Source: Ensifer sp. IC3342
GTDB lineage: Bacteria > Pseudomonadota > Alphaproteobacteria > Rhizobiales > Rhizobiaceae
Assembly: GCF_020193655.1 (NCBI RefSeq)
Contig: NZ_JADYVE010000002.1
Coordinates: 434,001 to 498,000, forward strand
Length of the DNA stretch: 64,000 bases
Direction: 5' to 3'
The position numbers and the translations under genes were made by a program. The notes beneath the pieces are model-generated. The model was given only the letters and a program-made list of their open reading frames with translations. It had not been told where the DNA came from and searched no databases. This document shows, in pieces, positions 44,054 through 63,251 of this stretch; positions within the stretch are counted from its first letter, which is position 1, and each line of letters starts with the position of its first letter.

Positions 44054-44098
44054 GCTGCGCCCTCGTTGAATGCATCAAAGGCGCGCGTGCCGCGGAAT

Positions 44099-44324: not shown

Positions 44325-44349
44325 TGACTTGCGGAAACTCGCCCATCCC

Positions 44350-45510: not shown

Positions 45511-45577
45511 TGTTCTCCCTCGTATTTTTGGTCCGCCTGCCTGGACCGATCTCCTCATCGGCCCGAGCAGGCATTTT

Positions 45578-45696
45578 GCCCCTCACCCGTCCCCTCTCCC
45601 CGCGGGCGGGGAGAGGGGACCCTGGTGCACGGCGGCTACGGCATCTCCCTTCTCTCCGTCAGAACGGGGAGAAGGTGGCGGCAGCCGGATGAGGGG
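45578..45696. repeat. RIME-like rhizobial intergenic mosaic repeat (copy 5)
   Basis: Starts gcccctcacccgtcccctc and ends gcagccggatgagggg, with hairpins ctctccccgcgggcggggagag and ccttctccgtcagaacggggagaagg in partial form. It separates the acyl-CoA dehydrogenase gene from the carnitine dehydrogenase gene upstream. Confidence 0.85.
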
Positions 45697-45717
45697 TCTC
45701 ATCCACCGTCATCACCT

Positions 45718-47208: not shown

Positions 47209-47241
47209 TCCCTCTCCTCGATCCCTTGAAATCCCTGTATT

Positions 47242-47347
47242 CCCCTCACCCTAGCCCTCTCCCCGCGAAGGGGGACTGGGGCGCCTAGGGCTTGCGTCCT
47301 TCGTCCCGTTTCTACGGGGAGAAGGTGCCGGCAGGCGGATGAGGGGC
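47242..47347. repeat. RIME-like rhizobial intergenic mosaic repeat (copy 6)
   Basis: Starts cccctcaccctagccctctc and ends gccggcaggcggatgagggg. It is degenerate in the left hairpin (ccccgcgaaggggg). It lies between the BKACE and carnitine dehydrogenase genes, inside what is otherwise one transcript. Confidence 0.8.
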
Positions 47348-47358
47348 CGAGCTCGCTC

Positions 47359-48261
47359 TTACCGCTTCTTCAGCTTCAGCTTCTCGCGGACCTCTGCCGG
47401 TCCGATGATCTTCGCGCCCATGCCCTCGATGACGGAGACCGCCTTTTCGACGAGCTGGCCGTTGGTCGCGAGCTGACCCTTGCCGACATAGAGGTTGTCT
47501 TCAAGGCCGACGCGGACATTGCCACCTGCAAGGATCGCCGCCGCTGGATAGGCGAGCGCATTGCGGCCGATCGAGAAGGCAGAGAAGGTCCAGTTCGACG
47601 GCACGTTGTTGACCATCGCCATGAAGGTGTTGAGGTCGTCCGGCGCGCCCCACGGAATGCCCATGCAGAGCTGGATCAGGACCGGATCCTCGATCAGGCC
47701 TTCCTCGACGAGTTGCTTGGCGAACCAGAGATGGCCGGTGTCGAATGCCTCGATCTCGGGGCGTACACCAAGCGCCGTCATCTGTCGGGCCATCTCGCGC
47801 AGCATCGACGGCGTGTTGGTCATGACGTAGTCGCCCAGCGAGAAGTTCATGGTCCCGCAGTCGAGCGTGCAGATTTCCGGCAGGCATTCGGCGACATGGG
47901 CGACACGCTCGGTGGCGCCAGCCATGTCTGTGCCCTTCTCGTTGACCGGGAAGGGGCTTTCGACATTGCCGAAAACGAGATCCCCACCCATGCCGGCGGT
48001 CAAGTTGAGGACAATGTCGATGTCGGCGGAACGGATACGGTCGGTCACTTCCTTGTAGAGGTCGAGGCGGCGGGCCGGTGCGCCGGTTTCCGGATCGCGG
48101 ACGTGGCAGTGGACGATCGCCGCACCAGCCTTGGCGGCCTCGACCGCCGCTTCGGCGATCTGCTTCGGCGTGATCGGGACGTGGCTGGATTTGGAAACGG
48201 TGTCTCCCGAACCGGTGACGGCGCAGGTGATGAATACCTCGCGGTTCATGCTGAGCGGCAT
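47359..48261 (-). CDS. 3-dehydrocarnitine cleavage enzyme (beta-keto acid cleavage enzyme, BKACE/DUF849)
   Basis: A 300-residue TIM-barrel Zn enzyme. ATG 48261 (MPLSMNREVF) follows AAAAGGGAGAC; the open frame continues about 300 codons upstream across the promoter and regulator, which is not coding. The Zn-binding HCHVRDPETG and the C-terminal GNVRVGLEDNLYV are hallmark motifs. With acetyl-CoA the carnitine-type enzyme converts 3-dehydrocarnitine to betainyl-CoA and acetoacetate. The neighbouring fused carnitine dehydrogenase-thioesterase makes this assignment strong. First gene of the minus-strand carnitine operon. Confidence 0.9.
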   Translation of the reverse strand: MPLSMNREVFITCAVTGSGDTVSKSSHVPITPKQIAEAAVEAAKAGAAIVHCHVRDPETGAPARRLDLYKEVTDRIRSADIDIVLNLTAGMGGDLVFGNVESPFPVNEKGTDMAGATERVAHVAECLPEICTLDCGTMNFSLGDYVMTNTPSMLREMARQMTALGVRPEIEAFDTGHLWFAKQLVEEGLIEDPVLIQLCMGIPWGAPDDLNTFMAMVNNVPSNWTFSAFSIGRNALAYPAAAILAGGNVRVGLEDNLYVGKGQLATNGQLVEKAVSVIEGMGAKIIGPAEVREKLKLKKR

Positions 48262-48317
48262 TGCTGTCTCCCTTTTGTTGGGAGCTATTACGAGCCAGAA
48301 AGATCGGCTTTGCTTTT

Positions 48318-48347
48318 CATTATCGGTGCTATCCTGTACATTATCGG
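48318..48347. promoter_or_regulatory. Direct-repeat operator candidate for the carnitine regulator
   Basis: Two exact copies of CATTATCGG begin at 48318 and 48339, 21 bp (two helical turns) apart. They lie in the 108-bp gap shared by the BKACE operon and the divergent AraC/GlxA-type activator. AraC-family proteins with two HTH motifs usually bind direct repeats of this spacing. The repeats end about 22 bases before the regulator's start codon, so autoregulation is likely. Confidence 0.55.
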
Positions 48348-48369
48348 CAGCTGAGGAGGAAGTTTTGCC

Positions 48370-49341
48370 ATGGATCAGATCGTTTCGCAGGTGCAGCACA
48401 TCGACTTGCTGGTCCTGCCGGAGACGAACCTGATCCTTGTCGCTTCCGTCATCGAGCCGCTGCGCGCCGCCAACCGCATCGCCGGGCGGAAGCTCTATAC
48501 CTGGACGATCTCCAGCCCGGATGGCGAACCGATCGAGACCAAGAGCGGCATTCCCATTCCCGTTTCCGGTCCCTTCCGGCCGCAGCGCGAGACGGCGCCG
48601 CTCTTCGTGCTTTCGAGCTACAACTGGGAGAGGAGTGCCACCTCGCAACTCAAGATGCTCCTGTCGCAGACGGCGCGGCATCGGGAAGTCATGGCGGGGA
48701 TCGAATCCGGCTCGTGGCTGCTTGCAGAGACCAGCCTGCTCGACAATTTTTCCGCCACCACCCACTGGGAGGATTTTGAGGATTTCGCCGCCGCCTATCC
48801 GCATGTGACCATGGTGCGCGAGCGTTTCGTCATCGACGGCAAACGCATCACGACCGGCGGCTCGCTGCCGACGCTCGACCTGATGCTGGAACTGATCCGC
48901 CGGGCGCATGGCTATTCGCTGGCGCTCGAGGTCTCCCGCCTCTTCATCTACGAGCAGGAGCGCACGCGTGGCGACCTGCTGCAGGTGCCGGCGATCGGCA
49001 ATATGCGCATTCTCGATGCCCGGGTCGGCGCCGCGGTCAAGCTGATGGAAGAGACGGTCGAGGCGCCGCTGACGCTTGCGCGCCTCGCACGCCGCGTCGG
49101 CGTCAGCGCCCGGCATCTGCAGGACCTCTTCAAGGACACGATGGGCGTTGCCCCGCATGAGCATTATCTCGCTCTCCGTCTCAATGCCGCACGTCGAAAG
49201 GTGATCGAGACGCGAATGGAGTTCGCCGATATCGCTGCGATCGCCGGCTTCAACTCCTCATCCTCGTTCTCGCGCAGCTACCGCGCGCATTACCGCGAAA
49301 GCCCTAGCGAAACGCGCCGGCGGCTGAAGCTCAAGAGTTGA
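48370..49341 (+). CDS. cdhR: GlxA/CdhR-type AraC-family transcriptional activator
   Basis: A 323-residue regulator: an N-terminal DJ-1/PfpI (class I amidotransferase-like) domain (IDLLVLPETNLILVASVIEPLRAA) without an evident catalytic Cys, and a C-terminal double HTH (LARLARRVGVSARHLQDLF and FADIAAIAGFNSSSSFSRSY). ATG 48370 follows GAGGAGGA. This architecture is that of CdhR, the carnitine dehydrogenase regulator, and of GbdR, the glycine betaine regulator. Divergence from BKACE and lcdH argues for the carnitine role; the symbol is by analogy. Confidence 0.85.
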   Translation: MDQIVSQVQHIDLLVLPETNLILVASVIEPLRAANRIAGRKLYTWTISSPDGEPIETKSGIPIPVSGPFRPQRETAPLFVLSSYNWERSATSQLKMLLSQTARHREVMAGIESGSWLLAETSLLDNFSATTHWEDFEDFAAAYPHVTMVRERFVIDGKRITTGGSLPTLDLMLELIRRAHGYSLALEVSRLFIYEQERTRGDLLQVPAIGNMRILDARVGAAVKLMEETVEAPLTLARLARRVGVSARHLQDLFKDTMGVAPHEHYLALRLNAARRKVIETRMEFADIAAIAGFNSSSSFSRSYRAHYRESPSETRRRLKLKS

Positions 49342-49421: not shown

Positions 49422-50603
49422 TCAGGGCTGCGCTGTTCCGGTCGTCATCATCCTGAACATGGCTTCGCCGGCCTGGGCCCAAAGGGCTTTCCTTGGCCAT
49501 ACCAGCGTCAAGGACTGTCTGTACTGGGGCGCGAGGCGGATCATCGCCGGTGGGCGATGGACGCGGGCGAGCGAGCTTTCCGGCAATATCGAGAGATAGC
49601 CGTGGTGGCTCACGAGATTGATGATTACAGGGATGGAGTCCACTTCGATCAGCGTGACGCGGCGCCGCTCGCTTTCGCTGAGCGTATCTTCCAGAAAGCG
49701 CGTCGCCTCGCGCCTCAGCCCGCTCTTGGCGCTCGGCACGGCGATCGGGGACGTGCACAGCAGGCGGGTGAAGTCGCCGTCCATTTCGGAAAATGTCGCC
49801 GCGGCGCCGGCGAGAGCCAGTGGCGTTTCCGATACCAGCCGGCCATCGAATTCGTTTGGAAAGTCAGCGACATCGAGGAGCGCGGCGTCAAAGCGCCGGC
49901 TCTTCAGTCCGGCGATGAGCTCGTCCGCCGTCGTGCTTGAAATGAAGAGGTGTTGCCGAGGGCGTGCCGCATGCCAGGCGGCCGTCAGCGCCGCCAGCAT
50001 ACGCGCGATCTCGCTCTCGGGACCGAGCGGCATCACCGCACCGAGACGCCATGTGGTCGCGTCGCGGCGAAAGCGGTCGTCTGATGCACGCGTCAGGCGC
50101 CCCCAGCATTGAAGCAGTTTTTCTGCCAGAGGGATGGCGGCAAGCGCTTCCTCGGTGCAGACGACCCCGTGATAAGCGCGCTCGAACAGCCGGTATCCGA
50201 GATGGCGTTCGAGATCTGCCATCTGCCGGGTCAGCTGGGGTTGGCCGAGCCCGAGCATCCGCGCGACGGAGCGTATGCTGCCGTTGCGGGCGATCTTCAC
50301 GAAACGGTCGAGTGCGGCCAGGCTGACGGGAGGGATCGGTCCTGACGCTGAGCTCCGGAGGAGGCTGGCGAGAAGCGTTGCGGTGTCGGCCGCTTCCGCG
50401 ATGTCCGCAATGCGTGCCTGCGCCTCGAGCGTCGGCACGAGCATAGCCCCCTCGCGGCGAAGCAGCGGGACCGAAATCGTCTGCTCGAAGCGCCGCACGG
50501 CGGCGCTGACACTCGACGGCGGGCGCCCGCAGAACTTTGCCGCACGCCGTATACCGCCTTCCCGCATCGTCGCGTCGACAAGGACGATCGTCGCAATATC
50601 CAC
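49422..50603 (-). CDS. LysR-type regulator with two tandem HTH domains
   Basis: About 393 residues from GTG 50603 (a longer frame begins at 50711 but crosses the divergent promoter). Two LysR-type HTH units follow each other: the first DATMREGGIRRAAKFCG then PPSSVSAAVRRFEQ, the second FVKIARNGSIRSVARMLG then GQPQLTRQMADLERHLG. The ordinary effector domain follows. Most LysR proteins have one HTH and about 300 residues; the extra 100 are the duplicated DNA-binding unit. It is divergent from the ergothionase-like gene by about 134 bp and is the likely regulator of that operon. Confidence 0.8.
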   Translation of the reverse strand: MDIATIVLVDATMREGGIRRAAKFCGRPPSSVSAAVRRFEQTISVPLLRREGAMLVPTLEAQARIADIAEAADTATLLASLLRSSASGPIPPVSLAALDRFVKIARNGSIRSVARMLGLGQPQLTRQMADLERHLGYRLFERAYHGVVCTEEALAAIPLAEKLLQCWGRLTRASDDRFRRDATTWRLGAVMPLGPESEIARMLAALTAAWHAARPRQHLFISSTTADELIAGLKSRRFDAALLDVADFPNEFDGRLVSETPLALAGAAATFSEMDGDFTRLLCTSPIAVPSAKSGLRREATRFLEDTLSESERRRVTLIEVDSIPVIINLVSHHGYLSILPESSLARVHRPPAMIRLAPQYRQSLTLVWPRKALWAQAGEAMFRMMTTGTAQP

Positions 50604-50644
50604 GATATCTACCCGCGCTTTGAACAGCGATGTCGATCGATCTG

Positions 50645-50672
50645 TTCGGATTTCGGCATCCTTCGTTCCGAA
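50645..50672. promoter_or_regulatory. Inverted repeat in the divergent promoter of the ergothioneine genes
   Basis: Arms ttcgga (50645-50650) and tccgaa (50667-50672) are separated by 16 bases, between the double-HTH LysR gene and the lyase gene. This suits a LysR-type site, but the arms are short and the claim is tentative. Confidence 0.3.
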
Positions 50673-50737
50673 TTTGGGATATACCACGCATCGGCACTGT
50701 GCGCATAGCATGCTCGCAAAAGAGGTTTCGTTTCAGC

Positions 50738-52276
50738 ATGCTGCAATCGGTCAAGACCATCGTACTTTGCGGAAAACCGCTCGACTTCGGGGTACTCGAA
50801 GAGATCGGCTCGGGGCTGGCGCGACCCGTCGCGGATGATGCAGGCATGGAGCGGGTGGCCGCCGCCCACAAGGTGGTCGCCGACCGCGTCGCGATGGGCC
50901 TGCCTGTCTATGGCTCCAACACCGGCGTCGGTTCGATGAAGGACCGGCTGTGGACGGCAGACGACCTCGCCGAATTCAATACATCGCTCGTACGTGCCCA
51001 TCACTTCGGCACCGGCGAATTCTTTGCCGCGCCGATCATCCGCAAGGCGATCGCCATCCGCGTCAACACCGCGATGCGTGGGCATACCGGCTGCAGCCCG
51101 GAACTTATCAACGCCTTCGTTGCGCTCCTCGAGCATGGCATCATCCCGGCCGTGCGCCGCCATGGCTCGATGGGCTGCGCCGATATTGGACTGATGGGCC
51201 AGGTGGCCTCCGTGCTGACCGGCGTCGGCGACGCCTATTATAACGGCCAACTGATGACAGCCGAGTCGGCGCTGAGGGAGGCGGGGCTCACCCCCTTTGT
51301 CATGCGACCGCGCGATGCGCTCGCCGCTCTCAGCGTCAATGCGATCTCCTACGCGGCGGCGGGCGACGTCCTGCGCGAGGCGGCGGCAGCGATCCGCGTC
51401 CTGCTCGTCACCGGCGTCATGTCGTCCCGGTCGCTCGGCGCCTCGGCCGATCCTTGGCTCGTTGCGGCGACGCTTTCGACGCGTGGCGAGGCGCTTGTCG
51501 GCTCCTGGCTCTACGCCCAGTCGGGCATTGCCGACTGGCCCTTGCCGACGGCGATCCACGATCCGCTGAGCCTCCGCATGACCGCCCAGGTTTTCGGCGC
51601 CGTCGTCGACACGCTGCTCGTGGCCGCTGGCCGACTGGTCGAGGCAACCTATCTTTCGGACGACAATCCCGTGGTGCTCGGCGGCCAGGTGCATTCATCC
51701 GGTGCGTCGCTGCCGCTGACGACGACGCTCTATATCGAGGCGGCGCAGGTCGCCTTCTCCCATGTGGCGCGCAATGTACTGAACCGCTGCATCCTGCTTT
51801 CGAACGGCGGGCGGCGCAACCTGTCGGTCAATCTCGTTGCACCCGGAGAGGTTGCCACGGGGCTCGGGCCGCTGATGAAACTCGCGGTCGAGCTCTACAT
51901 GCGTGTCCAGTCGCTTGCCGTACCCTTGTCGGCGCAATCGATCGTCGTTGCCGGCGGGCTGGAGGAGGAGGCGACCTTCCTGCCGCTGATCGTCGAACGC
52001 ATGGAGGCGCAGGTTCGCGACCTCCGGCAACTGGCGGCGATCGAGGCGATGCTGTCGGCGCAGGCGATCGACCTCGTCGGCGACGAGCCGAAAGGCGTCG
52101 TCAGGCTCGCCTACGACCGCACCCGCTCGGTCAGCCCGGTCTATCTCAAGGACCGCCCGCTCTCGAAGGAGATCGAAGCGCTGCAGGCGGCGTTCACCGA
52201 CCATGACCTCTTGCGCGCCTTCGTCGAGACGGCGCCGATGCCGGAATTCGACGACTTTTTCGCGCTGGCCAAATGA
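50738..52276 (+). CDS. Histidine-ammonia-lyase-family protein without MIO tripeptide, ergothionase candidate
   Basis: The protein has 512 residues from ATG 50738, with AGAGG about 12 bases upstream. It has the aromatic amino acid lyase fold, and N-terminal VYGSNTGVGSMK matches the conserved Tyr-containing YGxNTGFG loop. Where lyases carry GSVGASGDLAPL, with Ala-Ser-Gly forming the MIO electrophile, this protein has GSMGCADIGLMG: residues 147-149 are Cys-Ala-Asp (codons 51176-51184). MIO cannot form. Ergothionase (ergothioneine to thiourocanate plus trimethylamine) is the known MIO-free member of this family. Four further genes with matching later steps follow, which makes this the best assignment. 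Confidence 0.82.
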   Translation: MLQSVKTIVLCGKPLDFGVLEEIGSGLARPVADDAGMERVAAAHKVVADRVAMGLPVYGSNTGVGSMKDRLWTADDLAEFNTSLVRAHHFGTGEFFAAPIIRKAIAIRVNTAMRGHTGCSPELINAFVALLEHGIIPAVRRHGSMGCADIGLMGQVASVLTGVGDAYYNGQLMTAESALREAGLTPFVMRPRDALAALSVNAISYAAAGDVLREAAAAIRVLLVTGVMSSRSLGASADPWLVAATLSTRGEALVGSWLYAQSGIADWPLPTAIHDPLSLRMTAQVFGAVVDTLLVAAGRLVEATYLSDDNPVVLGGQVHSSGASLPLTTTLYIEAAQVAFSHVARNVLNRCILLSNGGRRNLSVNLVAPGEVATGLGPLMKLAVELYMRVQSLAVPLSAQSIVVAGGLEEEATFLPLIVERMEAQVRDLRQLAAIEAMLSAQAIDLVGDEPKGVVRLAYDRTRSVSPVYLKDRPLSKEIEALQAAFTDHDLLRAFVETAPMPEFDDFFALAK

Positions 52277-52307
52277 ACTGGCAAAGTGAACGGGAAGGGA
52301 ATGAGCA

Positions 52308-53690
52308 ATGTCCGACTTCGATCTCGTTCTGAAAGGCACCGTCGTCCTGCCGCACCGCATCGTCGAAGGCGGGCATGTGGCGGTGCGAGACGGCAAGGTG
52401 GTGCATGTCGGGCAGGGAGCGGCCCCATCGGCGCGCGAACGGCACGATCTCGGCAAGGCGCTGCTCCTTCCCGGCGCGATCGACGCCCAGGTGCATTCGC
52501 TGTCGCAGAGGAACCAGGAAGATTTCATCTGGTCGACGCGCTCGGCTGCCGCCGGCGGCGTGACGACGATCGTCGACATGCCCTATGACGAGGGCAATCT
52601 CGTCTGTTCGGCGGAAGCGGTCACACGGAAGATCGCCCATGCCGGTCCGCAGGCTCGCGTCGACTTCGCGCTCTACGGCACGATCGATCCCGAAGAGGGG
52701 ACGTCGCGGATTGGCGAGATGGTGGAGGCGGGTGTTGCCGCCTTCAAGTTTTCGACATTTGGAACGGATCCGAAACGGTTCCCCCGAATTCCCGCCGCCC
52801 TTTTGGAAGAGTGCTTCCGGGCTATCGCCCCGACAGGGCTGACGGCGGGCGTTCACAATGAGGATGACGAGGCGGTGCGGGCCGCGATCGACAAGGTCAA
52901 GGCCGCCGGGATTAGTGACTATCGGGCGCACGGCCTTTCGCGCCCGCCGCTGACCGAGCTCCTTGCGACGAACCAGATCTATGAGACCGGTGCGGCGACC
53001 GGCTGCCCGGCGCATGTAGTGCATTGCTCGCTTGGCCGTGGCTATGAAATTGCCGCCGCCTACCGGGCGCAGGGCCATGCGGCGACGATCGAGTGCTGTA
53101 TCCATTATCTCACTTTGGACGAGGAAAATGACGTCCGCCGCCTCGGCGGCAAGGCCAAGATCAATCCGCCGATCCGGCCGCGCGCGGAGGCGGAAAAACT
53201 CTGGCGGCATGTGGCTGACGGCAATGTCACGCTGGTATCGACCGATCATGTCAGCTGGTCGGAGGACCGCAAAACCAATCCGGATATGCTTGCCAACGCC
53301 TCCGGCGTGCCGGGCCTTGAGGTGATGGTGCCGCTTTTCGTCAAGGGTGCGCTGGAGCGCGGCATTCCGCTGACGCGCGCCGCTGAGCTTATGGCGCTCA
53401 ACCCGGCAAGGCATTTCCGGCTCGACCATTGCAAGGGGGCGCTCGAAGCGGGCAAGGATGCCGATATCATCGTCATGACGCCGGAATCCTATGTCTATGA
53501 TGCGGCGACAAGCGGTAATAATGTCGTCGGCTGGTCGCCCTATAACGGTATCCGCCTGCCGTGGCGGGTCACCGCGACGTATCTGCGCGGGCGGCTTGCC
53601 TTCGACGGCCGCCGCGTGGTCGCGGAGCCGGGCACCGGTGCCTTCGTGCGACCGTTGCCGAGCCTTCCGCTTCGGGAGCCGCGGCAATGA
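52308..53690 (+). CDS. Hydantoinase-family amidohydrolase, hydantoin-5-propionate hydrolase candidate
   Basis: A 460-residue cyclic amidohydrolase. Metal-site residues are Gln61-Val-His63 (IDAQVHS; most hydantoinases have His-X-His), the probable carboxylated Lys147 (AAFKFST), His183 (GVHNED), His239 (HVVHCS) and Asp313 (VSTDHVSW, read LVSTDHVSW). It would open the hydantoin ring of hydantoin-5-propionate to N-carbamoylglutamate in ergothioneine breakdown. GGGAAGGGA precedes ATG 52308. The stop overlaps the next start (ATGA), so it is coupled to the carbamoyl amidohydrolase that would take its product. Confidence 0.85.
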   Translation: MSDFDLVLKGTVVLPHRIVEGGHVAVRDGKVVHVGQGAAPSARERHDLGKALLLPGAIDAQVHSLSQRNQEDFIWSTRSAAAGGVTTIVDMPYDEGNLVCSAEAVTRKIAHAGPQARVDFALYGTIDPEEGTSRIGEMVEAGVAAFKFSTFGTDPKRFPRIPAALLEECFRAIAPTGLTAGVHNEDDEAVRAAIDKVKAAGISDYRAHGLSRPPLTELLATNQIYETGAATGCPAHVVHCSLGRGYEIAAAYRAQGHAATIECCIHYLTLDEENDVRRLGGKAKINPPIRPRAEAEKLWRHVADGNVTLVSTDHVSWSEDRKTNPDMLANASGVPGLEVMVPLFVKGALERGIPLTRAAELMALNPARHFRLDHCKGALEAGKDADIIVMTPESYVYDAATSGNNVVGWSPYNGIRLPWRVTATYLRGRLAFDGRRVVAEPGTGAFVRPLPSLPLREPRQ

Positions 53691-54952
53691 TCGCAACGCA
53701 AACCAATCTGCCGGTCGATGCAGGCCGCATCGCCGATATTCTCAAGGGGCTGGCACGCATCACCGAGCCTGAGCGCCCCTACACCCGCCGCGCCTTCACG
53801 CCGCTCTTCCTCGAAGGTCGCGCCTTCCTCGAAGAACGGTTCAGGGCCGCGGGCCTCGATACGAGGATCGATGCGGCCGGCAACCTCATCGGCCGACGCA
53901 AGGGTCGGAAGTCGACGCTCGGCACGATCATGCTCGGCTCGCATTCCGACACGGTTCCGGAAGGCGGCCGCTTCGACGGGATCGCCGGCGTTGCGGCCGC
54001 GCTCGAAGTGGCGCGGTCTCTTGCCGACGCCGGGATCGATCTCGACCATGACCTGGAGATCGTCGATTTCCTTGCCGAGGAGGTGTCGATCTTCGGCGTT
54101 TCCTGCATCGGCAGCCGCGGCATGGCCGGGCTCGTTCCGGATGGCTGGCTGAACCGCACGCACGACGGGCTGACGCTCCGCCAGGGTATTGTCGAGGCCG
54201 GCGGTGATCCTTCCCGTTTGCCTTCGTCGAAGCGGTCCGACATCAAGGCGTTCCTGGAGCTGCATATCGAGCAGGGACCGGTGCTTGAAGCCGAGCGCCT
54301 GGATCTTGGGGTCGTGACGGCGATCGCCGGGATCACGCGCATCGAGATCGTCGTCGAAGGACAGGCGGATCACGCGGGGACGACGCCGATGGGTCGCCGT
54401 CGCGATGCGCTTGTTGTCGCCTCACGCCTTGTGCTGGAGATCGAGAAGCTGGGCTTTGTCCATGCGGCAGGTGAGGGTCATTTCACCGCGACCGTCGGCG
54501 AATTCGAAATAGAACCCAATGCCGCCAACGTCGTGCCCTCGCGGGCACGGTTCTTGATCGATGCCCGCGCGGAACTGCGGCCGCAGATGGAGGCGTTCAT
54601 CATCGAGGTCGAGGCGCTTGCCGCTCGCATCGCCGAGGAGACCAGCGTCGAGATCATGTCGCCGAAGGTGATCTCTGACAATCACCCGACATCCGGCGAC
54701 CACTTGGTTCTTGCGACGTTGGAAGCGGCCTGTGGGCGCGTCGGCGCGCGGCATCGGCGGATGGCTTCGGGGGCGGGGCATGACACGGCCTGGATGGGCC
54801 GGATAACGAAAGCCGCTATGATCTTCATTCCCTGTCGCGATGGCCGGTCGCATGCGCCCGAGGAATGGGCGGAAAACGACGATATCGCGCTTGGCGCGGC
54901 GGTGCTGCTCGAGGCCGTGCAACGGCTCGACGGACAATTGCAGGAGAAGTAG
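53687..54952 (+). CDS. M20-family N-carbamoyl-L-amino-acid (glutamate) amidohydrolase
   Basis: A 421-residue Zn peptidase-fold amidohydrolase of the hydantoinase/carbamoylase type. ATG 53687 overlaps the preceding stop; the longer frame upstream is antisense-free but lies inside the hydantoinase gene. Metal ligands are visible in GSHSDTVPEGGRFDG (His, Asp), FLAEEVSIFG (Glu-Glu) and LELHIEQGPVLE (His), and the C-terminal His in GRSHAPEEW. It would hydrolyse N-carbamoyl-L-glutamate to glutamate, CO2 and ammonia. Directly downstream of its probable substrate-forming enzyme. Confidence 0.87.
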   Translation: MIATQTNLPVDAGRIADILKGLARITEPERPYTRRAFTPLFLEGRAFLEERFRAAGLDTRIDAAGNLIGRRKGRKSTLGTIMLGSHSDTVPEGGRFDGIAGVAAALEVARSLADAGIDLDHDLEIVDFLAEEVSIFGVSCIGSRGMAGLVPDGWLNRTHDGLTLRQGIVEAGGDPSRLPSSKRSDIKAFLELHIEQGPVLEAERLDLGVVTAIAGITRIEIVVEGQADHAGTTPMGRRRDALVVASRLVLEIEKLGFVHAAGEGHFTATVGEFEIEPNAANVVPSRARFLIDARAELRPQMEAFIIEVEALAARIAEETSVEIMSPKVISDNHPTSGDHLVLATLEAACGRVGARHRRMASGAGHDTAWMGRITKAAMIFIPCRDGRSHAPEEWAENDDIALGAAVLLEAVQRLDGQLQEK

Positions 54953-54955
54953 TAG

Positions 54956-56053
54956 ATGGGCCGGATATTGACGGAAAAGGATGTCGAGGCGGCGGTGAAG
55001 GGCGGTTCCGTCTACGCGGCGGGCGGCGGCGGCTGGGCCGATCACGGGCGCATGCTGGGGCTTGCGGCCGTCTCGATCGGCAAGCCGGAGCTGGTTTCGA
55101 TCAACGAGTTGAAGCCGGACGACTGGGTGGCGACCGCCGCTGCAATCGGCGCGCCGGCCTCAACGACGCCGTGGGAAATGCGCGGCGTCGATTACGTGAA
55201 GGCCGTTGAACTCTTGCAGGAGGCGCTCGGTGAAAAGCTTACGGGCCTGATCGTCGGGCAGAACGGCAAATCCTCGACGCTGAACGGCTGGCTGCCCTCG
55301 GCGATCCTCGGCACCAAGGTTGTGGATGCCGTTGGCGATATCCGCGCCCATCCGACGGGAGATATGGGGTCAATCGGTCTCGCCGGTTTGCCCGAGCCTG
55401 TGATCCAGACGGCGGTTGGGGGGAACCGCGAGGAGAACCGCTATATCGAGCTCGTGGTCCGGGGTGCGACGGCCAAGGTATCGCCGATCCTGAGGACCGC
55501 GGCGGACATGTCAGGCGGCTTCATCGCCTCCTGCCGCAATCCGGTCCACGCGTCCTACGTCAAGGCCAATGCCGCGCTCGGCGGCATCTCCATGGCCCTG
55601 ACTCTGGGAGAGGCGATTATCGCCGCGGAAGGCAAAGGCGGCAGTGCCGTCATCGATGCGATCGCCAACACCACCAACGGCTCCATCCTTGCCGAGGGAA
55701 CGATCACCGATAAATCCGTGGCTTATACCAAGGAGGCCTTCGACATCGGCACCGTTACGCTCGGGAAGGGCGATGACTCAACGATACTCCATGTCATGAA
55801 CGAATACATGGCCGTGGAAACGGCGGACGGTGTGCGCCTTGCAACCTTCCCGGATGTCATCACCACGCTGTCGCCGGAAGGCGAACCTTTGAGCGTAGGG
55901 CAGTTGCAGGTGGGCATGACGGTCTTTGTGCTGCATGTGCCGAAGACGGTGATCCCGCTCGCTTCCAGCGTGCTCGACCCGTCCGTCTATCCGCCGGTCG
56001 AAAAGGCGATGGGGATCGAGATTGCGCGCTACGCCTTGGCCGGGAAGCGCTAA
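54956..56053 (+). CDS. DUF917-family protein, thiohydantoin desulfurase candidate
   Basis: A 365-residue DUF917 (S-methyl-thiohydantoin desulfurase-like) protein, starting three bases after the carbamoylase stop. Features include the Gly-rich YAAGGGGWADHGR near residue 20 and PTGDMGSIGLAG near 137. A Cys at about 200 (FIASCRNPVHASYVK) and a C-terminal domain (GKGDDSTILHVMNEY) are visible. In the ergothioneine route a DUF917 enzyme exchanges sulfur for oxygen on 3-(5-oxo-2-thioxoimidazolidin-4-yl)propionate, giving hydantoin-5-propionate and sulfide. The call rests on family plus context. Confidence 0.8.
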   Translation: MGRILTEKDVEAAVKGGSVYAAGGGGWADHGRMLGLAAVSIGKPELVSINELKPDDWVATAAAIGAPASTTPWEMRGVDYVKAVELLQEALGEKLTGLIVGQNGKSSTLNGWLPSAILGTKVVDAVGDIRAHPTGDMGSIGLAGLPEPVIQTAVGGNREENRYIELVVRGATAKVSPILRTAADMSGGFIASCRNPVHASYVKANAALGGISMALTLGEAIIAAEGKGGSAVIDAIANTTNGSILAEGTITDKSVAYTKEAFDIGTVTLGKGDDSTILHVMNEYMAVETADGVRLATFPDVITTLSPEGEPLSVGQLQVGMTVFVLHVPKTVIPLASSVLDPSVYPPVEKAMGIEIARYALAGKR

Positions 56054-56065
56054 TGGGAGGACGAT

Positions 56066-56395
56066 GTGGCGCGTGACACCGGGCTTGAGGAACTGGTGAG
56101 GCAGGACCTCGGCGATCAGCCGGGGCTTTCGGAAAAGCCGATGTTCGGTGGTTTGGCCTTTCTTCTGAACGGCAATCTGCTTTGCGGCGCACGAGAGGAT
56201 GGAATGCTGGTGCGGCTTGGCAAGGGCAATGACGATTGGGCCTTGGCGCTGCCCGGGATCGTGCAGATGGTGATGGGCGAGCGCCGGATGCACGGCTGGG
56301 TGCGCGCCGGCGTGGAAGCCTATGGCGATGACGCCTTGCGCCGTCGCCTGCTGGATGCGGCGCTCGGCTACGTGTTCTCGCTGCCGCCGAAGTGA
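56066..56395 (+). CDS. TfoX N-terminal-domain protein
   Basis: A 109-residue protein that is one TfoX_N domain (KPMFGGLAFLLNGNLLCG, then MLVRLG and a C-terminal helical part ending in LGYVFSLPP). The start is GTG 56066 with GGGAGGAC about nine bases upstream. TfoX was named for natural-competence control, but short one-domain members occur widely with unknown roles. It is transcribed between the desulfurase and thiourocanate hydratase candidates; a link to sulfur or ergothioneine metabolism is not evident from its sequence. Confidence 0.78.
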   Translation: MARDTGLEELVRQDLGDQPGLSEKPMFGGLAFLLNGNLLCGAREDGMLVRLGKGNDDWALALPGIVQMVMGERRMHGWVRAGVEAYGDDALRRRLLDAALGYVFSLPPK

Positions 56396-56417
56396 GTGAA
56401 TGAGGGCGCCGTGATTT

Positions 56418-56550
56418 GCCCCTCACCCTAGCCCTCTCCCCGCTCGCGGGGAGAGGGGATGGCCGCACCGCTTGCCGCAAGTGCCAGCGGACGCGATGGC
56501 CACGAAGTTCCCTCTCCCCGCAAACGGGGAGAGGGCTAGGGTGAGGGGCA
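56418..56550. repeat. RIME-like rhizobial intergenic mosaic repeat (copy 7)
   Basis: Begins gcccctcaccctagccctc and ends with its mirror gggctagggtgaggggc, so this copy is a near-perfect large inverted repeat with a hairpin in each half (ctctccccgctcgcggggagag; ctctccccgcaaacggggagag). It interrupts the ergothioneine operon before the thiourocanate hydratase candidate. Confidence 0.87.
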
Positions 56551-56582
56551 AATCTGCGTCCACGCAACAAAGGACGATCGCT

Positions 56583-58241
56583 ATGCCCAAGCCCAATCCC
56601 CGTCATCCGAACTTTCCGATTCCCGGCGGGCCGGAACTGCGTGCCAAGGGTTGGCGGCAGGAGGCGCTGCTACGGCTTCTCGAAAACGTGCTTTCCGTCG
56701 GCGAGGATCCAGACAATCTCGTCGTCTACGCGGCGCTGGGCAAGGCCGCGCGCAACTGGCCGTCCCATCGGGCAATCGTCAAGACGCTCATCGAGATGGA
56801 CGAGGACCAGACGCTGATCATCCAGTCGGGCAAGCCGGTTGGACTGTTGAAGACCCATGCCAAGGCGCCGCTCGTCATCATGGCCAATTGCAACATCGTC
56901 GGCCAATGGGCGAAGGCCGAGGTCTTCTATGAGCTGCAGCGCAAGGGGCTGATCTGCTGGGGCGGGCTGACCGCAGGCGCCTGGCAATATATCGGCAGCC
57001 AGGGGGTGATCCAGGGCACCTACGAGATCTTCATGCGGATTGCTGAGCGCCGCTTCGGCGGCGATCTCTCCGGCCGTTTTGTGCTGACCGCCGGGCTCGG
57101 CGGTATGGGTGGCGCCCAGCCGCTGGCCGGCCGCATGGCGGGTGCGGCCATCCTCTGCGTCGATATCGATCCGGAACGCGCAAGGAAGCGCCAGCAGGTC
57201 GGCTATCTTCAGGAGATCGCGCCTGACCTGGACGCGGCGCTTGCAATGATCGACGCGGCGGTCAAGGAGAAGCGGGCGCTCTCGGTCGGTCTCGTCGGCA
57301 ACGCCGCGGAAATCTATCCGGAGATCGCTTCGCGAGGCATCGTTCCCGATGTGGTCACAGACCAGACGTCGGCGCATGATCTCGTCTACGGCTACGTTCC
57401 GAAGGGCATGAGCATCGAGCAGGTGCGGTCGCTGCGCGAAGACGGGCAGGGCCAGCTGATGGCGGCAAGCCGCGCCTCGATCGTCGATCACGTGAAGGCT
57501 ATGCTCGACTTCCAGAAAAAGGGCGCGGAAGTCTTCGACAACGGCAACCTTATCCGCACGCAGGCGCGGGAAGGGGGCGTTGCCAATGCCTTCGACATTC
57601 CGATTTTCACCGAGGCTTATCTGCGGCCGCTCTTTGCCCGCGCCATCGGCCCGTTCCGCTGGATGGCGCTTTCCGGCGAAGAGAGCGACATCGCCCGGAT
57701 CGACGACCTGCTCCTCGAGATGTTTCCGGACAATCGGATCATCACCAACTGGGTCCGGCTCGCACGGAAGCACATTCCCTTCGAGGGCCTGCCGGCGCGC
57801 ATCGCCTGGCTCGGCCACGGCGAACGTACGGCGCTTGCGCGGCGCGTCAATCAACTGGTCGCCAGTGGCGAGCTCAAGGGGCCGATCGCCTTTTCACGCG
57901 ACCATCTCGATGCCGGCGCCATGGCGCATCCGAACATCATGACGGAGCGGATGAAGGACGGTTCCGACGCGATCGCTGACTGGCCACTCCTCGACGCCAT
58001 GCTGCTCTGCTCCTCGATGGCCGACCTCGTCGTCGTGCATTCGGGCGGGGGAGGTTATGCCGGTTACATGACGAGCTGCGGGGTGACGGTCGTTGCAGAC
58101 GGCACGAAGGCCGCCGACGAGCGGCTTGACCACGCGCTGACCAACGACACTTCGCTCGGCGTCATCCGCTATGCGGATGCGGGTTACGACGAGTCCTTCG
58201 AGGAGATTGCGGCAAAGGGCATTGGACACGTGAAGGTTTGA
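56583..58241 (+). CDS. Urocanase (HutU)-family protein, thiourocanate hydratase candidate
   Basis: 552 residues from ATG 56583, with AAAGGA nine bases upstream; the longer frame crosses the repeat. The NAD-binding centre GLGGMGGAQPLAGRM (about 171-185) is that of urocanase. Where urocanase has GLPARICWVG with the essential Cys (Cys410 in P. putida), this protein has GLPARIAWLG, so Ala408. The conserved HHGGG becomes HSGGG (His486). These changes argue against ordinary histidine breakdown. Adding water to thiourocanate, the ergothionase product, fits the cluster. The final ergothioneine enzyme encoded in the operon. Confidence 0.82.
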   Translation: MPKPNPRHPNFPIPGGPELRAKGWRQEALLRLLENVLSVGEDPDNLVVYAALGKAARNWPSHRAIVKTLIEMDEDQTLIIQSGKPVGLLKTHAKAPLVIMANCNIVGQWAKAEVFYELQRKGLICWGGLTAGAWQYIGSQGVIQGTYEIFMRIAERRFGGDLSGRFVLTAGLGGMGGAQPLAGRMAGAAILCVDIDPERARKRQQVGYLQEIAPDLDAALAMIDAAVKEKRALSVGLVGNAAEIYPEIASRGIVPDVVTDQTSAHDLVYGYVPKGMSIEQVRSLREDGQGQLMAASRASIVDHVKAMLDFQKKGAEVFDNGNLIRTQAREGGVANAFDIPIFTEAYLRPLFARAIGPFRWMALSGEESDIARIDDLLLEMFPDNRIITNWVRLARKHIPFEGLPARIAWLGHGERTALARRVNQLVASGELKGPIAFSRDHLDAGAMAHPNIMTERMKDGSDAIADWPLLDAMLLCSSMADLVVVHSGGGGYAGYMTSCGVTVVADGTKAADERLDHALTNDTSLGVIRYADAGYDESFEEIAAKGIGHVKV

Positions 58242-58259: not shown

Positions 58260-59021
58260 TCAGACGACCGTCTCCCCGCCATCGACTACAAGAATCTGCC
58301 CGGTCATATAGGAGGACCGGTCGGATACGAGGAAGAGGATCGACTCGGCGATCTCGTCGACGCTAGCCCATCGCCCGAGCGGCACCTTCTCGCGGATATA
58401 GGCCTCGATAGCGCCGCGCCCGCCCATCTGGGCGATGAAGGGTTCGTTGAAGGGCGTATCTACCCAGCCGGGGCAGAGCGCATTCACGCGCACGCCGTAT
58501 TTCGCATAGTCGCCGGCCATCTGGCGGGTCATGGCGATTATGGCGTGCTTCGTCGTCGTGTAGGCGATCATCTCGCGGTCGTAGAGCACGCCGGAGGAGG
58601 AGGAGGTATTGACGATGACGCCGCGGCCCGCCGCCTTCATTGACGGCATGACGAGACGCGCGGCCATGAAATGGGCGCGGACGTTAAGGCTCCAGGATCG
58701 GTCGAAGCCCGCCACGTCGACCCTTAGGAGATCGCCGGCGACCTGCGCACCGGCGTGATTGTGCAGGATGTCGATGCGGCCGTGGCGGTAAAGCACGTCG
58801 GCAATTCCAACCGAGAGCGCGTCGTCATCGGTGACGTCGATGGGGAGTGCCTCGGCGGTGCCGCCCTTGGCAGTGACGACGGCCACCGTCTCCTCCGCGG
58901 CTTTCGCGCTGCGGTCGATGACAACGACATGGGCGCCTTCGCGCGCCATGATGGCGGCGCCTGCCTGACCGATGCCGGAGCCTGCTCCGGTGACGATCGC
59001 GATCCGGTCCTTCAGGATCAT
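58260..59021 (-). CDS. Short-chain dehydrogenase/reductase
   Basis: A 253-residue classical SDR: cofactor motif TGAGSGIGQAG, Asp of the NAD type (VVVIDRS), NAG variant HNHAGAQ (Asn-His-Ala-Gly), catalytic Ser in NTSSSSGVL and YTTTK with Tyr and Lys. The C-terminus ILVVDGGETVV is typical. It ends 18 bases from the stop of the thiourocanate hydratase candidate on the other strand, and is the last gene of the ABC transporter operon, four bases after the permease. It may oxidise the transported compound; the substrate is unknown. Confidence 0.86.
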   Translation of the reverse strand: MILKDRIAIVTGAGSGIGQAGAAIMAREGAHVVVIDRSAKAAEETVAVVTAKGGTAEALPIDVTDDDALSVGIADVLYRHGRIDILHNHAGAQVAGDLLRVDVAGFDRSWSLNVRAHFMAARLVMPSMKAAGRGVIVNTSSSSGVLYDREMIAYTTTKHAIIAMTRQMAGDYAKYGVRVNALCPGWVDTPFNEPFIAQMGGRGAIEAYIREKVPLGRWASVDEIAESILFLVSDRSSYMTGQILVVDGGETVV

Positions 59022-59025
59022 TGTT

Positions 59026-59844
59026 TCACTCCCCGGATTTGCTTTTCTTTTCGCGCATCAGAAGGCGCGCTGTCAGGATCAGGAGCAGCGAGGCGACCAA
59101 TACCAGCGTCGCGATCGCGTTGATTTCCGGCGTCACGCCGCGGCGGATCGAGGCGAAGACATAGATCGGCAGGGTCGTCTTCGAGCCGGCGACGAAGAAG
59201 GCGATGATGAAATCGTCGAAGGAGAAGGTGAAGGCGAGCAGGAAGCCGGCAAGGATCGATGGCAGGATCTGCGGCAGCACGATCAGGCGGAAGGTGGTGA
59301 GTGGCGTCGCGTAGAGGTCGCTCGAGGCCTCGACGATGTCGCGGCCGAGGCTCGCGATTCGTGCCTTGACGATCATGGTCACCAGCGCCATCGAGAAGAG
59401 CCCGTGGGCGGCGATGATCGAGCCGTAGCCGAGGCCGAGCTGCGGCGGCTGATCGCCCGGCCAGAGCGTCGCGAGCGCCGGATTGACGAAAGAGAAGACG
59501 GCGACGAGCGCGACCAGCGTAGCAATTCCGATCACCACGCCCGGCACGACGATGGCGGCGGCGAAGAGTGCGTCAAAGATGGCGCGCGTGCGCGTGCCGA
59601 GCCGCTCCATGCCGAGCGCGGCCATGGTGCCGAAGACGGCGGCGAGCGCCGCACTCGTAAAGGCGATCATGAGGCTGTTTTGCAGCGCCGAGACGAGGAA
59701 GGTGTTGCCTAGTGCCTTGCCGTACCAGGCGGTCGAGAAGCCGGTGAACTCGCTGGCGCTGCGGCCGGCATTGAAAGAGAAAAGCACGACCAGCGCGATC
59801 GGCGCGTAGAGGAAGAGATAGACAGAGGAGATGAAGGCGCGCAT
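59026..59844 (-). CDS. Polyamine-type ABC transporter permease (PotC type)
   Basis: A 272-residue permease from ATG 59844 (MRAFISSVYLF), six hydrophobic segments, EAA loop DIVEASSDLYATPLTTFRLIVLP in short form (EASSDLYATPL). Start overlaps the PotB-type stop by one base; the longer frame reads through the preceding gene out of register. Part of the four-component transporter encoded at 59026-63157. Confidence 0.88.
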   Translation of the reverse strand: MRAFISSVYLFLYAPIALVVLFSFNAGRSASEFTGFSTAWYGKALGNTFLVSALQNSLMIAFTSAALAAVFGTMAALGMERLGTRTRAIFDALFAAAIVVPGVVIGIATLVALVAVFSFVNPALATLWPGDQPPQLGLGYGSIIAAHGLFSMALVTMIVKARIASLGRDIVEASSDLYATPLTTFRLIVLPQILPSILAGFLLAFTFSFDDFIIAFFVAGSKTTLPIYVFASIRRGVTPEINAIATLVLVASLLLILTARLLMREKKSKSGE

Positions 59845-60707
59845 CAGACGAGGTCCACCTGTCTTGTGCCCGCGACCTTCCAGGCGATCCGCATCGCCAC
59901 CATGAGCACCACGACGACGACCGCGACAAGGGTGACGGCGATTGCCGAGCCGAAAGGCCAGTTGCGCGACTGCAGGAAGAGATCGACCAGCGCATTGCCG
60001 ATGAAGAAGACCTTGCCGCCGCCGAGAAGCTGCGGGATCAGGTACTCGCCGAGGAGCAGGATGGTGACCAGCGCGACGCCGGTCATGACGCCCGGAAGCG
60101 ACAGCGGCAGCGTGACTCCGAAGAAGGTGGAGACCGGTCTGGCGCCGAGATCGGCGGAAGCCTCCAGAAGCCGCCGGTCGAGTTTTTCGAGGCTTACATA
60201 GATCGGCATGATCATCAGCGGTAGATAGCCGTACACGATGCCAAGCAGCACGGCGCCGGGCGTGTTCAGCATGCGGACATCCTCGATGCCGATCATCGCA
60301 AGCAGATTGGGAATGCCGCGCGAGCCGAGAATGTACATCCAGGCGTAGGTGCGCACGAGCAGGCTCGTCCAGAACGGCACGACCACCAGCGAAACGAGGA
60401 TGAGGCGATAGCGCGGGTTCGCCCTGACGGCGAGGTAATAGGCGACGGGATAGGCGACCAGCAGGCAGAGCAGGGCGCCGACAGGCGCAAGCACCAGCGT
60501 GTTCCAGAATGCCGCTGCCCGCGTCGGCAGGTTGGCGAACTGGGCGAAGGTGAAGGCCGCCTGATAACCGCCCTCCGGCGCGCGCTCGCCGAAGGCAAAT
60601 ACCAGCATGGCGATGAAGGGGAGAACCAGGAAGACAGTGAGCCACGCCGCCGCCGGCGCGACCAGCGCCGCCGTCACCAGATTCCTCTTCTTAATTGCCG
60701 CTTGCAT
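59844..60707 (-). CDS. Polyamine-type ABC transporter permease (PotB type)
   Basis: A 287-residue permease, six membrane segments (for example LTVFLVLPFIAMLVFAF near the N-terminus), EAA loop RLLEASADLGARPVSTFF. Only one base is shared with the next permease gene. A RIME-like repeat separates it from the binding-protein gene upstream. Confidence 0.88.
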   Translation of the reverse strand: MQAAIKKRNLVTAALVAPAAAWLTVFLVLPFIAMLVFAFGERAPEGGYQAAFTFAQFANLPTRAAAFWNTLVLAPVGALLCLLVAYPVAYYLAVRANPRYRLILVSLVVVPFWTSLLVRTYAWMYILGSRGIPNLLAMIGIEDVRMLNTPGAVLLGIVYGYLPLMIMPIYVSLEKLDRRLLEASADLGARPVSTFFGVTLPLSLPGVMTGVALVTILLLGEYLIPQLLGGGKVFFIGNALVDLFLQSRNWPFGSAIAVTLVAVVVVVLMVAMRIAWKVAGTRQVDLV

Positions 60708-60736
60708 CCGGTTTGGTCCGTGGGTTGAAGTGGATT

Positions 60737-60848
60737 GCCCCTCACCCTAGCCCTCTCCCCGCATGCGGGGAGAGGGGACCTGGGCGGTGCGGCACACATC
60801 CCTTCTCCCCGCAGGCGGGGAGAAGGTGGCGGCAGCCGGATGAGGGGC
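60737..60848. repeat. RIME-like rhizobial intergenic mosaic repeat (copy 8)
   Basis: Starts gcccctcaccctagccctc and ends gcagccggatgaggggc, with two hairpins (ctctccccgcatgcggggagag; ccttctccccgcaggcggggagaagg). As in the first polyamine operon, the copy lies directly downstream of the binding-protein gene. Confidence 0.87.
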
Positions 60849-60865
60849 GGCTAGGCAGTCCTCGC

Positions 60866-62026
60866 TCACGCCGACTTGAAACGCGCCATCAGCTCGGCGC
60901 GGCCGGGATCGGTCAGCGTCACGGCGGCGCCGAATTCGAGCGGCGTCAGCGCCGCTTCATCCGGATAGACGATTTTGTTCGAGGTGACCTCGGGCGGCAG
61001 AAGCTTCAGGACACGGCTGTCGGTCGTCGGCGCGCCGTTGGCGATGTGCTCCTTGACGGCGTTTTCCGGCGTCATCAGGTAGTTGAGCAGCGCGTAGCCG
61101 GCGGCTTTGTTGGCCGCGCTCTTCGGTATCGCGTAGAAATCCGACCAAATCTCGCCGCCGTCCTTGCCGAGCACGAACTGGATTTCCGGCATGTCGCGGT
61201 TGAGCTGCGCGCCGTCATTGGTCCAGCACATCGTCATCCAGGCGTCGGTCGCGCGCATCGATGGCTGGTAATCGCTGTTGATTGCATAAAGATGCGGCTT
61301 CACCTTGATCAGGAGTTCCTCGGCCTTGGCAAGTTCGTCCGGTTTGACGGAGTTGAAGGAATAGCCGAGCGAGACGAGCGCATTGCCGATGGTGGTGAGC
61401 TGGTAGTCGTGCACCATGGCGCGGCCGTCCGCCTCGGTCATCGCGACGTCGAAGAACTCCTTCCAGCTCGTAACCGGCGCCTTGATCTTGCTGGAGTTCA
61501 CGGCGATGCCGGTCGTGCCCCAGTTCTTCGGCACGGCATAGGTCTTGCCGTCGACGATGCCTTCGTTGGTGAAGCGCGGGTTCTCGGTCGAGGCGTCGTA
61601 ATTCGGCAGTTTCGACATGTCGAGCTCATCGATCAGGCCGAGCTTCACATAGGTCGATATCGTGTAGTTGGTTGGAACGAAGAGGTCCCAGCCGGTGCCG
61701 CCGGCCTGGAGCTTTGCGAGCATTTCCTCGTTCGAGCCGAAGACGTTGACCTCGACGGCAACGCCGGTTGCGGCCGTAAAGGCCTCGAAGGTGGCGGGGT
61801 CATGATAGTTCGGCCAGGTCGCGATCGACATCTGCGTGCCGAGATCGCCGGCGAAGGCAGCGGAATTGAAGAGGCCTGGCTGGCGCGCGAAGACGGCCGC
61901 CGCAAGTCCGAGGCCGGTGACGCCGAGAAAGTGGCGGCGCGTGACCGAGCCGCGCTTCAGGCGCATCAGCTCGTCGGCAAGCTTGTCGGCGGTTATCGGG
62001 GCATTCTCTCTGTACCATTTGGTCAT
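60866..62026 (-). CDS. Polyamine-type ABC transporter substrate-binding protein (PotD/PotF class)
   Basis: A 386-residue periplasmic protein with a Tat leader (VTRRHFLGVTGLGLAAAVF) preceded by a 28-residue cytoplasmic tail. The mature part has the family start (MSIATWPNYHDPATFEAF), LFVPTNYTIS and MCWTNDGAQ. The family binds putrescine, spermidine or other cationic compounds. Encoded next to the ergothioneine operon on the opposite strand, it could bind a trimethylammonium compound, but no residue seen here decides that. Confidence 0.85.
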   Translation of the reverse strand: MTKWYRENAPITADKLADELMRLKRGSVTRRHFLGVTGLGLAAAVFARQPGLFNSAAFAGDLGTQMSIATWPNYHDPATFEAFTAATGVAVEVNVFGSNEEMLAKLQAGGTGWDLFVPTNYTISTYVKLGLIDELDMSKLPNYDASTENPRFTNEGIVDGKTYAVPKNWGTTGIAVNSSKIKAPVTSWKEFFDVAMTEADGRAMVHDYQLTTIGNALVSLGYSFNSVKPDELAKAEELLIKVKPHLYAINSDYQPSMRATDAWMTMCWTNDGAQLNRDMPEIQFVLGKDGGEIWSDFYAIPKSAANKAAGYALLNYLMTPENAVKEHIANGAPTTDSRVLKLLPPEVTSNKIVYPDEAALTPLEFGAAVTLTDPGRAELMARFKSA

Positions 62027-62077
62027 GATGCTGTTCCCTTATCGTTGACGTGCAGTGATGGCAGCAGGTCCGGCGGT

Positions 62078-63157: not shown

Positions 63158-63251
63158 GTCTGTTCCCTGCGGTTGTTCTTCAAGGATGTGGCACTCCCGG
63201 GCCCACCTTCCACCGTCATTGCCAAATAGCCTAGTCAAATGCGGTGGCGCT

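Follow-up and report, generated by a model that had tools for sequence, protein, structure and literature searches.

Does a gene cluster that carries homologues of histidine-pathway enzymes break down histidine, or does it break down ergothioneine, an antioxidant of fungi that is also made by some bacteria and reaches soil? We addressed this question for a 64,000-nt stretch of DNA from Ensifer sp. IC3342 (hereafter the window, to whose positions the coordinates refer). The block at 49422–58241 is very probably an ergothioneine-utilization operon. It consists of six genes on the + strand plus one divergent gene (Table 1), and its gene content and order, family scores, separation from HutH and HutU, and conservation are established here. 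An initial annotation of this DNA had proposed candidates for five enzymes on one strand, in the order lyase, hydantoinase, N-carbamoyl amidohydrolase, DUF917 desulfurase and urocanase homologue, and all five reading frames are found on the + strand. It called the operon near-complete; the five-enzyme set is in fact complete, and an importer is the only part for which no gene was identified. It had passed over the TfoX-like gene, which lies inside its coordinates (50738–58241), as well as the LysR gene on the opposite strand and the palindromic repeat ahead of the hydratase gene. The tight junctions described for the middle genes are both present, with a 4-base ATGA overlap between amidohydrolase and carbamoylase genes at 53687–53690 and 3 bases between carbamoylase and desulfurase genes. 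The hydratase start is assigned to the ATG at 56583.

Table 1. Features of the predicted ergothioneine block and its surroundings (window positions, except in the last row, which gives loci of other genomes).
Feature	Position	Strand	Basis or remark
LysR-family regulator, tandem LysR-type helix-turn-helix (HTH)	49422..50711	-	Pfam HTH_1 x2 + LysR_substrate; true start probably internal
Candidate ergothionase (ergothioneine trimethylamine-lyase), MIO-free, divergent member of aromatic lyase family	50738..52276	+	PF00221, 6s7j match
Hydantoin-5-propionate amidohydrolase (ErtD)	52308..53690	+	NF058538
N-carbamyl-L-glutamate amidohydrolase (ErtE), M20 hydrolase	53687..54952	+	NF058540
Thiohydantoin desulfurase (DUF917 / S-Me-THD-like)	54956..56053	+	NF058529
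TfoX N-domain protein, 109 aa, sixth + strand operon gene	56066..56395	+	PF04993
Composite inverted repeat, within 187-base gap 5' of hydratase gene	56411..56554	.	
Thiourocanate hydratase (urocanase homologue)	56583..58241	+	NF058530
Carnitine/crotonobetaine-type genes and GlxA/AraC-type regulator; same island, outside pathway	41202..49341	.	
SDR gene and Pot-type ABC transporter (two permeases, binding protein, ATPase)	58260..63235	-	Probably not ergothioneine-specific
Pot-type transporter binding protein	60866-62026		
Lyase-free operons with nearby TRAP genes	L103, L105, L122:5043-17023, L123:4795-16256		

The four enzymes downstream of the lyase are recognized by curated models. The NCBIfam release of June 2026 includes models for the ergothioneine pathway, and these give 797.5 bits for ErtD (NF058538, cut-off 600), 601.6 bits for ErtE (NF058540, cut-off 520), 594.2 bits for the desulfurase (NF058529, cut-off 440) and 1062.2 bits for the hydratase (NF058530, cut-off 930). 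The same scores bear on whether the operon serves S-methyl-ergothioneine instead of ergothioneine. The S-methyl models are homologous and match hydratase and desulfurase at 744.9 and 284 bits, but both stay under their own cut-offs (880, and 450 for the desulfurase model NF058532), whereas the plain thio models are exceeded by more than 130 bits; a dedication to the S-methyl compound is very improbable. The sole relative of the desulfurase among PDB sequences is 2o3i, a hypothetical protein, at 44.7 bits.

A second hut cluster, made up of a histidine ammonia-lyase, a urocanase and a hydantoinase side route, is the other reading that the family matches bring to mind. The hydratase does exceed the hutU model TIGR01228 (693 bits, cut-off 375), and the lyase matches the hutH model TIGR01225 at 198.1 bits, far under the cut-off of 539.15. 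The residues of the hydratase argue for a thiourocanate hydratase. At the urocanase Cys position (411 in alignment numbering), which we take to correspond to the active-site residue Cys410 of P. putida, the window hydratase has Ala (residue 408), and Ala or Gly is found there in 15 other operon hydratases and in PDB entry 7ned. These 17 rows are distinguished from three HutU sequences by 54 alignment columns. The window hydratase is 67% identical to 7ned; that entry is deposited as 'Urocanate hydratase', so the likeness offers no independent proof.

The lyase, a PF00221 member, has lost the catalytic signature of HutH, as the initial annotation had claimed for a needed residue in each of the two histidine-pathway homologues. 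Where HutH reads GSVGASGDL the window lyase reads GSMGCA-DI, and the tripeptide that forms 4-methylideneimidazole-5-one (MIO) is gone. The one-residue gap at this site is common to the window lyase, the ergothionase 6s7j, and the lyases of Burkholderia, Paracoccus and the genome G096. A PDB sequence search with the lyase places 6s7j first at 194 bits, followed by 7tqr (133) and P. putida histidine ammonia-lyase (HAL; 98). An AlphaFold2 model of the lyase, built from 24 sequences, has a predicted local distance difference test (pLDDT) score of 89.8, and a fold search with this model ranks three 6s7j chains first, with template modeling (TM) scores of 0.89–0.90 and root-mean-square deviations (rmsd) of 2.1–2.2. 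The Treponema denticola ergothionase (6s7j/6s7q) thus resembles the window lyase in being MIO-free, in its fold (TM 0.90) and in the MIO-site gap. It differs in sequence (29% identity), in its separate clade and around HAL Phe329, where 6s7j has NFE and the window lyase ASLPL.

Histidine utilization itself is encoded elsewhere in the genome. On contig C60, HutH (743 bits, cut-off 539) keeps the MIO motif and HutU, 78% identical to that of P. putida, keeps the urocanase Cys; the two genes lie less than 4 kb apart with one reading frame between them. They belong to the same superfamilies as the window lyase and hydratase, at 25% and 50% identity, respectively. A desulfurase would have no role in histidine breakdown. 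Given the lyase score, the losses of the MIO motif and the Cys, the desulfurase and the separate HutH and HutU, we reject a hut duplicate, which has next to no probability. The ergothioneine reading of the initial annotation is supported instead: four of the five enzymes exceed pathway cut-offs, the lyase is nearest to an ergothionase, and both homologues stand apart from the HutH and HutU that this genome also encodes. That annotation also held that a histidine label would be usual and probably wrong. Such a label is now dated: the June 2026 NCBIfam release names four of the five enzymes, although the plasmid records inspected still use 'urocanate hydratase', 'DUF917 family protein' and 'aromatic amino acid ammonia-lyase'. 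Separately, contig C82 of this genome carries a third lyase-family gene (L094, 316949–318403), which scores 464.8 bits with the hutH model (cut-off 539) and has no ASG motif (GSVGYLTH).

Family membership suggests how the operon would work, and it is from such evidence that we infer its substrates, regulation and physiological role. The MIO-free lyase would strip trimethylamine from ergothioneine to leave thiourocanate, which the urocanase homologue would hydrate to thiohydantoin propionate. The DUF917 protein would then swap sulfur for oxygen with release of sulfide. Ring opening of the resulting hydantoin-5-propionate by the amidohydrolase would give N-carbamoyl-glutamate, from which the M20 hydrolase would make glutamate, ammonia and CO2. 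Beliaeva, Leisinger and Seebeck (2021, ACS Chem Biol) reportedly described a five-step bacterial pathway of ergothioneine catabolism, and the same five activities are predicted in the window, four of them by passing NCBIfam models. The pathway itself is therefore known, with curated models in place; the divergent lyase and the TfoX-like gene go beyond the initial annotation, as do the tandem-HTH LysR gene, the setting beside carnitine genes and the lyase-free relatives. Set against the five-step pathway as such, rather than against that paper's own enzymes, the window differs in these two genes, in its tandem-HTH LysR gene and in its carnitine neighbors.

A separate cluster could use the trimethylamine further. 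Contig C29 (L092, 50001–69000) carries genes for trimethylamine and trimethylamine N-oxide (TMAO) demethylation, among them trimethylamine monooxygenase (Tmm; 851 bits, cut-off 675), TMAO demethylase (Tdm; 1275, cut-off 1100), a TMAO permease (839, cut-off 690) and a type III glutamine synthetase (622, cut-off 470). One-carbon genes for PurU and FolD are also present, together with a member of PF11927, a family that presumably includes dimethylamine oxidases. This cluster could demethylate the trimethylamine that the lyase would release and make its nitrogen available to the cell. The strain is probably no ergothioneine maker by the EgtB route, since no EgtB over cut-off was found in the genome (best 71 bits, cut-off 360). 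Plant and fungal ergothioneine had been proposed as the source. Plants are described as non-producers in PMC7653990, which would leave fungi or other microbes as the source, and the plant half of the proposal falls.

The five genes travel together. Our locus sample comprises the best 80 of 391 desulfurase relatives in genome contigs, with 35% query coverage by the tblastn match as the minimum for a gene to be counted; counts for carnitine, SDR-ABC, Osm and TfoX genes also required identity above 45%. All five enzymes are encoded in 73 of the 80 loci, the four non-lyase enzymes in 76 and the lyase in 77; the three loci that have no lyase (L064, L070 and L074) end early upstream. With this linkage, and with four equivalog models exceeded by 80 to 200 bits, chance is excluded as the origin of the arrangement. 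In an even draw of the family, the desulfurase exceeds its cut-off in 16 of 151 genomes, a count that takes in the window's own; the hydratase does so in 12 of 33 genomes of the genus, and the desulfurase is found in 5 of 385 genomes of the class. The module is thus found across Rhizobiaceae and other Hyphomicrobiales, in most cases with a divergent lyase. Lyases of the window's own subgroup, 68–98% identical to it, occur in Ensifer, Sinorhizobium, Pararhizobium, Shinella, Mycoplana and some Rhizobium loci, and a second subgroup (42–55% identical) occurs in other Rhizobium loci, Neorhizobium, Martelella, Devosia, Salinarimonas and others. By our reading of the 16 family operons, eight have the window subgroup, five the second subgroup, one a 6s7j-like lyase and two no lyase.

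Operons with the four other genes and no lyase, as judged within 15–19 kb of fetched sequence, are found in P. aminophilus, Thalassospira marina and the genomes G049 and G068. TRAP transporter genes lie near all four, and a UbiD-type decarboxylase gene near three. Such operons may use thiourocanate made by others, or possibly a different substrate. Thiourocanate cross-feeding among gut bacteria is mentioned in PMC13405746.

Several observations weigh against the assignment to ergothioneine. G049 and G068 each have a single PF00221 gene, which scores like HutH, so the module can serve something besides ergothioneine itself. The generic 'Zn-dependent hydrolase' model NF009531 outscores ErtE on the carbamoylase (674.9 bits, cut-off 486), and no dedicated importer was identified. 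The lyase is claimed by no NCBIfam model; only aromatic-lyase models match it, all under cut-off. It is 26–30% identical to the lyases of 6s7j, B. arboris, P. denitrificans and G096, which share 36–59% among themselves, and 25% identical to the HutH of its own genome. By fold, the P. putida HAL chains are a close second (TM 0.86–0.88, rmsd 2.8–3.6), ahead of other ammonia-lyases and aminomutases, and the lead of 6s7j over HAL in the predicted model is real, not large. The position of HAL Tyr280 is Leu in the window, 6s7j, Burkholderia, Paracoccus and G096 lyases, but also in the C82 lyase, so that this Leu is no specific ergothionase mark.

The lyase phylogeny adds to these points. It was built from two PDB rows and 25 of the 99 lyase rows that had been extracted, a set with some duplicates, with 6s7j as the sole tested ergothionase. 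In this 27-row tree the window lyase belongs to a clade of 20 rows, whose branch is 5.25 changes per column long. The outgroup splits off with 100/99 support, with long branches and unusual composition flagged, and it holds only three lyases (the genome's own HutH, its C82 lyase and 7tqr), of which the C82 lyase has no ASG motif. On these alignments the lyase clade appears to be a divergent type whose joining point in the tree is unsettled. In the test called for by the initial annotation, the lyase comes out as a distant, long-branched sister of the 6s7j type with its grouping unsettled, and its substrate assignment leans largely on its operon partners. Lyases of Burkholderia arboris (L120) and Paracoccus denitrificans (L121) likewise lie in loci with the desulfurase and thiourocanate hydratase; unlike the window lyase, they group with 6s7j and are encoded downstream of the hydratase gene.

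A divergent lyase could also mean that the operon is tuned to an oxidized form, such as ergothioneine sulfonate. A pathway for ergothioneine sulfonate has reportedly been described (Yan 2022), and Agrobacterium belongs to the same family as the window strain. A thiohydantoin desulfurase over its cut-off suggests a reduced thiol substrate, however, and we consider tuning to an oxidized form quite unlikely. Ergothioneine itself remains the favored reading. PMC13405746 cites Yan 2022 for the ergothionase of Agrobacterium radiobacter, treated there as known, and this enzyme may belong to the window lyase clade.

The sixth + strand gene encodes a TfoX-like protein that scores 38.8 bits with PF04993 (cut-off 30.1). 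In 51 of 79 loci, which represent several genera, Devosia among them, it has the desulfurase gene on one side and the hydratase gene on the other; L036 was set aside because it has no hydratase within its contig. At that position it was not found in the other 28 loci, and so it cannot be essential everywhere for the pathway. Across the 151 family genomes, all five homologues of at least 62% identity (the window's included) lie within 30 bases of a desulfurase match, and the remaining 25 homologue matches (36–52% identity) lie away from the desulfurase. Against seven relatives, the ratio of nonsynonymous to synonymous substitution rates (dN/dS) is 0.05–0.26, clearly purifying and slightly above that of most pathway enzymes. 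The AlphaFold2 model (pLDDT 94.7) gives Foldseek matches to 2od0 and YjbR (2fki) with probabilities of 0.97–1.00 and weak E values of 0.02–0.03; a PDB profile search with the family returned four matches, the best at E 0.42, and nothing useful. The protein is thus like known TfoX N-domain proteins (PF04993; 2od0) by Pfam and fold, with the difference that, in the 151 genomes, close homologues of the window type lie only beside the desulfurase. A single literature search, which brought up a paper on an engineered Vibrio, gave no link between TfoX and ergothioneine breakdown.

We tentatively entertain the idea, possible though doubtful, that rhizobia have their own version of the pathway. It would begin with a second ergothionase subfamily, named by no curated model, that split early from the Treponema/Burkholderia type. 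Its sixth protein would belong to a TfoX-fold subfamily confined to the position between desulfurase and hydratase genes, and would act with the desulfurase, where it might, for example, handle the sulfide set free or an unstable thio-intermediate. A literature search returned nothing joining ergothioneine, trimethylamine and Rhizobiaceae, and among the matches listed by a rhizobial search ergothioneine is not mentioned. A 2026 gut paper states that ergothionase occurs in few genera, that BLAST returns ammonia-lyases only and that divergent homologues were possibly missed (PMC13405746). The same paper weakens the idea of a distinct version, since the ergothionase that it gives as known from Agrobacterium radiobacter may share the clade.

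Regulation would probably fall to the divergent tandem-HTH LysR protein. Two HTH_1 stretches are present in eight of the nine LysR proteins scanned, namely the window's and those of seven related loci; the ninth, encoded downstream of its operon in L050, has one. Interspersed palindromic repeats (CCCTCTCCCCGC...GCGGGGAGAGGG) also occur in the window, one copy within the operon between the TfoX-like and hydratase genes. This copy has 45-nt arms that are 96% complementary and 52 nt apart, and related copies lie at 45571–45619, 47234–47282 and 60730–60828 (two, at 60730 and 60780). The repeats presumably resemble rhizobial intergenic mosaic elements. Rfam gave 0 matches at gathering score between 45000 and 63900, and a known RNA element in this region was rejected on that blank result.

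The block is flanked by genes of other function. On the carnitine side, carnitine 3-dehydrogenase scores 931.8 bits with NF005716 (cut-off 592) and the other genes fall below cut-off; the carnitine/crotonobetaine-type set at 35730–47208 adjoins a peptide/nickel-type ABC transporter. A carnitine dehydrogenase or keto-acid cleavage gene is present in 47 of the 80 loci, with flanks ending at 10 kb or at contig ends. On S. meliloti pSymB, a 91-base gap free of annotated features separates the carnitine-end regulator from the SDR gene, and the SDR-ABC set is retained without the ergothioneine block. A tree of three carnitine-side proteins (12 rows, Shinella root) nests S. meliloti, at 100/100 support, inside rows that carry the block; the five-enzyme tree has much the same shape. 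Loss is simpler than recent insertion given this nesting. The S. meliloti lineage has probably lost the block, and a recent insertion into the window lineage is rejected.

The same comparison bears on import. Pot-type permease genes accompany the operon in 31 of the 80 loci, as they might if the Pot-type ABC transporter and SDR gene belonged to the ergothioneine system as its importer. Yet S. meliloti has the transporter without the block, listed Rhizobium plasmids align with the window (at megablast sensitivity) over the SDR-ABC part only, and six of the 80 loci instead hold an OsmF/OpuAC-type transporter within the operon; we reject the Pot-type transporter as the importer, a role that seems unlikely for it. 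The six loci (L054, L057, L061, L067, L068 and L075) come from Martelella, Devosia, Salinarimonas and a Hyphomicrobiales genome, and their transporter genes follow the lyase gene; in all but one of the six they also precede the amidohydrolase gene. The families were assigned by a family scan of L068, to which the other five were matched by tblastn. These OsmF/OpuAC-type quaternary-amine transporters are candidate ergothioneine importers. As betaine transporters they are similar in kind to the known importer EgtU, which carries a quaternary-amine transporter annotation (PMC9732360). A MazE-like/PIN-domain toxin-antitoxin pair lies directly 3' of the hydratase gene in the Rhizobium locus L050 (13302–13990), and a similar annotated pair lies upstream of the lyase gene in L125.

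Assigned to ergothioneine breakdown, the divergent lyase and the TfoX-like protein would gain a clear biochemical setting. The genome also encodes NodA (328 bits), and the operon would put ergothioneine use next to carnitine use in a nodA-bearing bacterium.

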